This document shows, piece after piece, positions 21,120-49,375 of a DNA stretch of 64,000 bases; within the stretch, counting starts at the first letter, position 1, and each line of letters begins with the position of its first letter. Source of the stretch: Halonatronum saccharophilum DSM 13868 (GTDB taxonomy: Bacteria > Bacillota > Halanaerobiia > Halobacteroidales > Halobacteroidaceae); the NCBI RefSeq assembly GCF_000517025.1, contig NZ_KI912095.1, positions 498,497 to 562,496 of the forward strand, given 5' to 3'. The position numbers were made by a program, and so were the translations under genes. The notes beneath the pieces are model-generated. The model made no database searches. It had not been told where the DNA came from and saw only the letters and a list, made by a program, of their open reading frames with translations.

Positions 21120-21120
21120 T

Positions 21121-21224
21121 TACCTACCAATTGATAATTGATAGATTAAAATTGATAGTTAAAATCTTAATTTCTTAAAATCTTTTAACTGTCAATTATC
21201 AATTTTCAATTGTCAACTGCTTTA
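21121..21224. repeat. Word-type hairpin spacer between tRNA-Cys and tRNA-Leu
   Basis: The left arm reiterates TTGATAA/TTGATAG words and the right arm reiterates GTCAATT/TCAATTA words, giving an imperfect hairpin around AAATCTTAATTTCTTAAAAT. Similar spacers lie at 21822-21915 and 22005-22075. Confidence 0.55.
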
Positions 21225-21226
21225 TT

Positions 21227-21301
<75 letters not shown>

Positions 21302-21395
21302 ACAAAATATAACTATTAATTAAGAGTTTAGAATTAAAAATTATTTGAACTCTTTAACTTTTCCTTCTTAATTGTTAATTCTTAATTATTTTTTA

Positions 21396-21750
21396 TATGA
21401 TACCCCTCAATATGATACCCCTCAATGTTTTAAAAAGCAAAAACATCTCGTGGTGTCGTAATTCCATACTTTCTTAGTAGCACAATAATTCAATGCCACT
21501 CTTTAACTCTAACGAAACTATATGGTACCCTTTCAAGGATTTAAAATTCAAAATCCCTTTATGGTGTAGAAACTATAAATTTTTTTGAAAGATAATCATC
21601 AATGTTAATGTTTTAATCATTTCGAAACTATATGGTACCCCTCAATGTTTTAAACAGCAAAAACATCTCGTGGTGTCGTAATTCCATACTTTCTTAGTAA
21701 CACAATAATTTAATGCCACTCTTTAACTCTAACGAAACTATATGGTACCC
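21396..21750 (-). repeat. Tandem direct repeats joined to the 3' end of tRNA-Glu
   Basis: Three units of about 115 bp follow tRNA-Glu on the minus strand. The first and third are nearly identical; the middle one keeps only the ends. Each begins with GGTACCATATAGTTTCG, the first bases being the tRNA 3' end, and closes with a small hairpin (ATGTTTT, loop, AAAACAT, or a variant) and GGGGTACC or a close variant. Two short remnants (GATACCCCTCAATAT) extend the array to 21396. Confidence 0.8.
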
Positions 21751-21818
21751 CCAAGGGGATTCGAACCCCTGCCGCTGAGATGAAAACCCAGTATCCTAGG
21801 CCACTAGACGATGGGGGC
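21743..21818 (-). tRNA. tRNA-Glu (anticodon TTC)
   Basis: A 76-nt cloverleaf with acceptor GCCCCCA/TGGGGGT, anticodon loop TTTTCAT, T-arm GGTTCGAATCC and encoded CCA. Its 3' end is repeated in the array downstream. Confidence 0.93.
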
Positions 21819-21821
21819 CTA

Positions 21822-21915
21822 GTATTTAGTTGAAAGTTTATAGTGGATAGTTAAGACCTTAAATTCTTAAAATCTTTTAACTGTCAATTGTCAACTATCA
21901 ATTATCAACTGTTTT
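21822..21915. repeat. Word-type hairpin spacer between tRNA-Lys and tRNA-Glu
   Basis: The left arm has AGTTGAAAGTTTATAGTGG-like words. The right arm is reiterated GTCAATTGTCAACTATCAAT. It has the same architecture as the Cys-Leu spacer, with a core AAATTCTTAAAATCTTTTAA. Confidence 0.5.
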
Positions 21916-21994: not shown

Positions 21995-22263
21995 TCATTT
22001 TTATTAGTTTACAATATAGAATCAAAGATTAAATCCTTAAAATCTTTTTAAGTATAATTTTCAATTATCAACTGTTCTTTAAGCTAAGTTTATTTTTCAA
22101 ATTTCTTCAACAATTATTAATTCTATATTATTTTTTATTAAAAGTCAAAAAAAATAATATTATCCCTCAGCACCTTTTATATAATAATATATTAAAACAA
22201 GTTTGTCAATGATTTTATCAAATAATCTTAAAACATCAATGAAAAAGGTGTTATTACAGAGAA

Positions 22264-48994: not shown

Positions 48995-49375
48995 AGTAAT
49001 AAAGTGCAACTTTTAAAAACCAAAAAGAAAAGTTCAAGAGCTTTTTGAAACCATACCCTGAGGGAGCACCTTTTGAATTGGGATCGCACGAGATGTTTTT
49101 GGTTTTTAAAACATCGAGAGGTACCTTTTAAATTGGGATCGTATGAATGGTTTATGGCTTTTATAAACCATGAAAAATACTCTTGGGGTGCTAATTAACA
49201 CTAATATAGGTCAAAAAATATTTTGTTCATTATTAAAATTTATGATTTTGATGAAGGTTAACTAATTTTTATTATGATTTCAGTATTTTAATTTTAAAGA
49301 TTTATTAATATTAAGTTGTTTAAATCTTTTATTCGTGACTATTCGTGTCCATTAGTGGTGAAAAAATCTTTTGGC
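48995..49375. repeat. Intergenic repeat block sharing modules with the tRNA-Glu array
   Basis: The 594-bp gap between the radical SAM gene and the CmpB-like gene has no gene. It holds two adjacent units with TTTTGAATTGGGATCG or TTTTAAATTGGGATCG, each leading to a hairpin (ATGTTTTTGG/AAAACAT; ATGGTTTATGG/AAACCAT), the first followed by CGAGAGGTACC. It then has TTGGGGTGCTAATTAACAC and, in inverted sense, ATTCGTGTCCATTAGTGG. The first hairpin closely matches the one in the tRNA-Glu array (21402-21440, opposite strand). Confidence 0.65.

Follow-up and report, generated by a model that had tools for sequence, protein, structure and literature searches.

Why should the 3′ end of a tRNA gene be copied again and again directly behind that gene? 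The question is raised by a 64,000-nucleotide stretch of the genome of the salt-loving bacterium Halonatronum saccharophilum (hereafter, the window), in which tRNA-Glu(TTC) lies in a minus-strand tRNA cluster, with tRNA-Lys upstream and tRNA-Cys and tRNA-Leu downstream. An array separates the tRNA genes in the order Lys-Glu-array-Cys-Leu and consists of three direct repeats 3′ of tRNA-Glu(TTC), also on the minus strand, which are of types A-B-A, are each exactly 110 bp long, and have start-to-start spacings of 110 and 110. Each unit contains a hairpin and then a copy of the tRNA-Glu 3′ end (GGGGTACCA), the 8-bp hairpin standing immediately before the GGGGTACC copy. The features, with their basis in brackets, are as follows:

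21743–21818, minus strand: tRNA-Glu(TTC), 3′ end GGGGGTACCA (ARAGORN; Rfam RF00005)
21633–21742, minus strand: unit 1, type A, 110 nt, end GAGGGGTACCA (sequence, repeat comparison)
21644–21667, minus strand: unit 1 hairpin, GATGTTTT / AAAACATT, 8-nt loop (sequence; hairpin family covariation)
21523–21632, minus strand: unit 2, type B, 110 nt, end GAAAGGGTACCA, near-identical to the B unit of locus L002
21535–21558, minus strand: unit 2 hairpin, AGGGATTT / AAATCCTT, 8-nt loop (sequence; hairpin family covariation)
21413–21522, minus strand: unit 3, type A, 110 nt, variant end GAGGGGTATCA (97% identical to unit 1)
21424–21447, minus strand: unit 3 hairpin (sequence)
21398–21412, minus strand: extra 15-bp duplication of the last unit end, TATTGAGGGGTATCA (repeat family D3)

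An earlier note on this locus had described three units of about 115 bp after tRNA-Glu; the three direct repeats are real, but the unit length is 110 bp. The near-identity that it saw between units 1 and 3, both of type A, amounts to 97% over 121 nt (E 3.6e-54), and the identity between unit 1 and unit 2, which is of type B, is 69%. tRNA-Glu, unit 1, and unit 2 share the terminal sequence GGTACCATATAGTTTCG. Unit 3, the last, terminates in the variant GGGGTATCA, after which comes the 15-bp extra duplication, and the last tRNA-end copy in the window is decayed (GGTATC). In the Rfam search, the tRNAs were the sole matches at the locus; the RtT covariance model (RF00391) gave no match up to E 10 in window positions 21300–21850, and no intrinsic terminator was found around the array. 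Separately, we observed a second, AT-rich repeat family (AACTGTCAATTGTCAACTATCAATT...) at window positions 21120–21225, 21825–21915, and 22010–22080, which occupies the spacers between tRNA genes and is seen again close to tRNA loci elsewhere.

Is the array a peculiarity of one gene? The genome that contains the window (G000, 2.88 Mb) has four tRNA-Glu genes, which give four identical 57.4-bit tRNA matches, and all four carry one to three units: A-B-A in the window, B-A in L002, A in L003, and an A/B hybrid in L004. Because every tRNA-Glu gene of this genome carries such units, the window array is far beyond chance, and simple chance is excluded as its origin. In the order Halanaerobiales, 9 of 13 genomes have units behind at least one tRNA-Glu gene (G000, G003–G007, G009, G011, and G012), and both families of the order are represented. 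No units were found behind tRNA-Glu in the other four (G001, G002, G008, and G010), and some tRNA-Glu genes of G003, G004, and G005 also lack them, which indicates that the unit is dispensable. Unit lengths fall into two classes, of about 56–58 and 110–113 bp; the idea that the 110-bp units are dimers of 55-bp units was rejected, as their halves are no more similar than shuffles. A class-wide pattern search of 59 genomes did not find units outside the order. When 84,980 species genomes, the window's own not included, were scanned for the exact pattern, the long GGTACC form turned up in Natroniella only; this pattern overlooks some units that are short or of the G009 type. The earlier note had recommended looking for the unit at other tRNA genes and had named as its refutation units that occur only here through simple tandem duplication; the units are instead present at all four tRNA-Glu genes, at other loci, and in related genera.

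The re-use of the tRNA 3′ end, which the earlier note had pointed out, proved to be specific for tRNA-Glu and widespread in the order. Among the fetched loci, the gene's own 3′ hexamer was repeated within 130 nt downstream in 20 of 41 tRNA-Glu genes compared with 2 of 172 other tRNA genes (Fisher p 8e-15, which is indicative only, as the genes of related genomes are not independent). Both exceptions involve one tRNA-Met hexamer, found at two loci of A. arabaticum, and resemble chance matches. The 3′ end of tRNA-Leu(TAA) is likewise GGTACCA, yet no unit is found there; therefore, the hexamer alone is insufficient. Furthermore, the unit end matches the host tRNA-Glu end, which is generally GGTACC but is GGTGCC in G011 and GATGCC in G012. 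G009 and G011 belong to one genus and have unit bodies that are 74% identical, and the same A/G difference separates them at the tRNA end and at the unit end. Such matching, for which the independent changes are few, is expected if the unit ends are renewed from the tRNA end, be it by conversion, slippage, or insertion, or if selection acts on both ends together.

The hairpin, too, is conserved. Across 18 distinct terminal stems, aligned by hand (alignment A3) and trimmed to the stem, four loop letters, and the tail, 96% of the cells were paired, a value that leans towards well-paired units, as the mismatched G009 and G011 hairpins were excluded. We counted 22 double-change cells compared with 5.6 in shuffles, and the second stem pair is seen as A-U, G-C, and U-A. 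These compensatory changes indicate that it is the folded hairpin that is preserved, whether as RNA or as single-stranded DNA. In the unit bodies, no conserved fold was shown beyond the 3′ hairpin.

Copy number, which the earlier note had proposed to compare between strains, differs by whole units at an orthologous locus. Loci L056 (G003) and L059 (G005) share a tRNA cluster with nearly identical flanks, L056 exceeds L059 by exactly two units (112 bp), and the break point falls inside GGGGTACCA; the two genomes are of different species of one genus, and the pair does not distinguish gain from loss. Within G000, the similarity between L001 and L003 spans tRNA-Glu and one unit and ends there. 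As the similarity is limited to this cassette, the tRNA and the unit move together, which would occur most simply by gene conversion or duplication.

How, then, can the array be explained? A precedent that the readings of the earlier note had omitted is the E. coli tyrT/rtT system. In E. coli K-12, which served as our positive control, the repeats that follow tyrV have a period of 178 nt and each ends in the 19-nt tRNA-Tyr 3′ end including CCA; the annotated 171-nt E. coli rttR stops exactly at the first CCA copy. As cited in PMC4986893 and PMC2965389, rtT has been reported to be an RNA that tRNA operons release and that may be tied to the stringent response. We give about an even chance to the reading that the array is an rtT-like tRNA-trailer repeat that is not homologous to rtT. 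Directly behind tRNA-Glu stands a tandemly repeated hairpin segment, the last letters of which copy the 3′ strand of the tRNA-Glu acceptor together with CCA. Since the array lies inside a same-strand tRNA cluster, it should be co-transcribed with the tRNAs. The transcript would then be cut at each GGGGUACCA copy into RNAs some 110 nt long whose CCA ends resemble those of tRNAs. Whole units would be gained or lost as the array slips from one GGGGTACCA copy to another, and gene conversion may carry the cassette of tRNA-Glu plus unit among tRNA-Glu genes. Against the rtT-like reading stand the patchy presence of the units, the decayed last copy, the lack of a conserved fold shown in the unit bodies beyond the 3′ hairpin, and the hairpins at scattered non-tRNA sites, a distribution that a mobile palindrome would also have. 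A more specific proposal, which we consider quite improbable, is that small RNAs are processed from the units, imitate tRNA-Glu in T-arm, acceptor strand, and CCA, and act on a machine specific for this tRNA, for which 3′ processing, glutamyl-tRNA synthetase, and Glu-tRNA reductase would be candidates. If true, it would explain why tRNA-Glu alone carries the units and why the unit ends track the host tRNA-Glu sequence.

Relatives of the hairpin are dispersed in the genome. A covariance model of the short unit gave 33 matches with E < 1e-5 in G000, which include the tRNA-Glu units, the rest being at scattered intergenic sites. An interspersed tandem hairpin family of the form GGNACC-TTTGAAATTGRGATT-N′CACGA-hairpin-GAGGG was observed on the plus strand of the window at 49065–49125 and 49126–49180 (G000:C6:547561-547676) and also at L016–L045. 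In one downstream unit (L021, G000:C5:135743), a second complete hairpin (CCACGAAGGGTTCGG..CCCGAAGGG) lies within the loop, which suggests a nested insertion. Side observations were also made at IS605-type genes. In L087 (1864–1925, G000:C8) and L113, tnpA has an insertion of about 113 bp compared with the intact homologues L119 and L120, which swaps the TnpA C-terminus for a similar one and adds a CACGGAGAG..CTCGTAGGGG hairpin. Behind tnpB in L086 (2820–3060, G000:C7) and L116, there is a hairpin, CTACGAG..CTCTTCGTG, that looks like the reverse complement of the units and, in G000, flanks a stretch reading N and seemingly repeated. We considered whether such hairpins in IS605 3′ regions are inserted units and rejected this; they are more likely part of the IS, as a G001 copy has its own hairpin there.

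Could the tRNA-Glu arrays themselves be the product of mobility? In the main rival to the rtT-like reading, they would derive from a REP- or PATE-like miniature mobile palindrome with the tRNA-Glu 3′ end as its insertion site, perhaps mobilized by an IS200/IS605-type HUH transposase that acts in trans with a guide beside the hairpin. The dispersal of the hairpin module and the precise presence or absence of units at an orthologous locus fit this proposal, as do two Y1 transposases in G000, each an IS605-type tnpA adjoining tnpB. In the interspersed units, moreover, the N of GGNACC is complementary to the N′ before CACGA in 22 of 26 cases compared with 9.7 when shuffled (p < 5e-5), as guide:cleavage-site pairing predicts. 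This is reminiscent of the pairing mechanism described for IS200/IS605 (PMC7290912), although descent of two or three subfamilies could give part of the signal. At tRNA-Glu, however, the guide-like match is absent (0 of 7 short units), and we rejected the idea that HUH guide pairing brought about the insertions there. Nor does the presence of HUH TnpA track the units across the order: G009 has units without TnpA, and G001, G008, and G010 have TnpA without units. The interspersed copies show no excess of left/right direct repeats that would mark target duplication (p 0.72; an 8-bp match was found in L030 only), and tRNA-Leu(TAA), with the same GGTACCA end, is unused. These results leave mobility plausible for the interspersed family but not supported as the cause of the tRNA-Glu arrays, for which we consider a mobile palindrome possible but somewhat unlikely.

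An integrative element is a far weaker contender. The 3′ ends of tRNA genes are common attachment sites, and the direct repeats of a tRNA end seen here could be what a tyrosine-recombinase element at tRNA-Glu left behind on excision, or its nested att sites, as the earlier note had in part proposed. A search for a trans-acting recombinase, which it had advised, located five PF00589 integrases in G000, all on contigs C4 and C8, whereas the four tRNA-Glu genes lie on C5 and C6; no integrase gene was found next to the repeats or on the contigs with tRNA-Glu in this genome. The units have no phage, plasmid, or viral-contig match, and their fixed length, conserved hairpins, and recurrence in many genomes and loci also argue against scars. 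With the integrases elsewhere and the interspersed relatives lacking target duplication, we rejected this explanation as highly improbable; a recombinase-driven element is likewise not supported, since the presence of HUH TnpA does not track the units. Another alternative is a selectively neutral tandem duplication of the tRNA-Glu 3′ end and trailer, devoid of function. Slippage alone fits both the whole-unit copy differences between short direct repeats and the patchy presence of units; it does not fit well with the compensatory stem changes, with unit ends that stay in step with the host tRNA end despite diverged bodies, or with recurrence in both families of the order, and we regard neutral duplication as unlikely.

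The rtT-like reading can be set against several known systems. As in genomic islands that target tRNA genes, direct repeats of a tRNA 3′ end flank a segment, but there is no integrase and no cargo, the identity covers 7–9 bp only, and the unit length is fixed. The units resemble REP/BIME sequences with their RAYT transposases (PMC3733652) in being short, imperfect, extragenic palindromes that are sometimes in tandem and, in known cases, mobilized by Y1-type enzymes. Unlike in REP/BIME, the tRNA-linked units are in direct rather than alternating orientation. REP/BIME palindromes carry a conserved GTAG or CGTC tag at one foot; the hairpin here bears a conserved CACGA and no GTAG at the 5′ foot, and GTAG is found in some units, at the 3′ foot. 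Neither of the two Y1 genes of G000 is a dedicated transposase flanked by repeats, as a RAYT would be; they are ordinary IS605-type tnpA genes by tnpB. PATE of Halanaerobium hydrogeniformans (PMC7290912), from the same order of bacteria, is also a hairpin element. Its guide lies by the hairpin foot, and a guide-like match is seen in 22 of 26 interspersed units but in 0 of 7 units at tRNA-Glu. PATE has both ends of one IS (271 bp), whereas the units have one terminal hairpin. No parent IS ends with two hairpins were identified for the units, the IS605 3′ regions showing only the look-alike hairpin in reverse orientation.

The closest parallel is tyrT/rtT (RF00391). In both systems, tandem units lie directly 3′ of a tRNA gene and each ends in the 3′ end of that tRNA including CCA. 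In both, the body of the unit has a relative among interspersed palindromes, namely BIME for rtT in E. coli (PMC2965389) and the GGNACC hairpin family here. The differences are that the tRNA is tRNA-Glu rather than tRNA-Tyr, the units are 55 or 110 bp rather than 178, the copied tRNA end is 7–9 nt rather than 19, the RF00391 model is unmatched, and the RNA product is a predicted one. Furthermore, many genomes have the units, at several or all of their tRNA-Glu genes, whereas rtT, an oddity that has been around for decades, is known mainly from a single E. coli locus. An rtT-like case with an unrelated sequence, a different tRNA, phylogenetic replication, unit ends that track the host tRNA, and hairpins preserved by compensatory change would demonstrate the independent origin and persistence of CCA-ended tRNA-trailer repeats, and its several carrier genomes allow function to be separated from descent.
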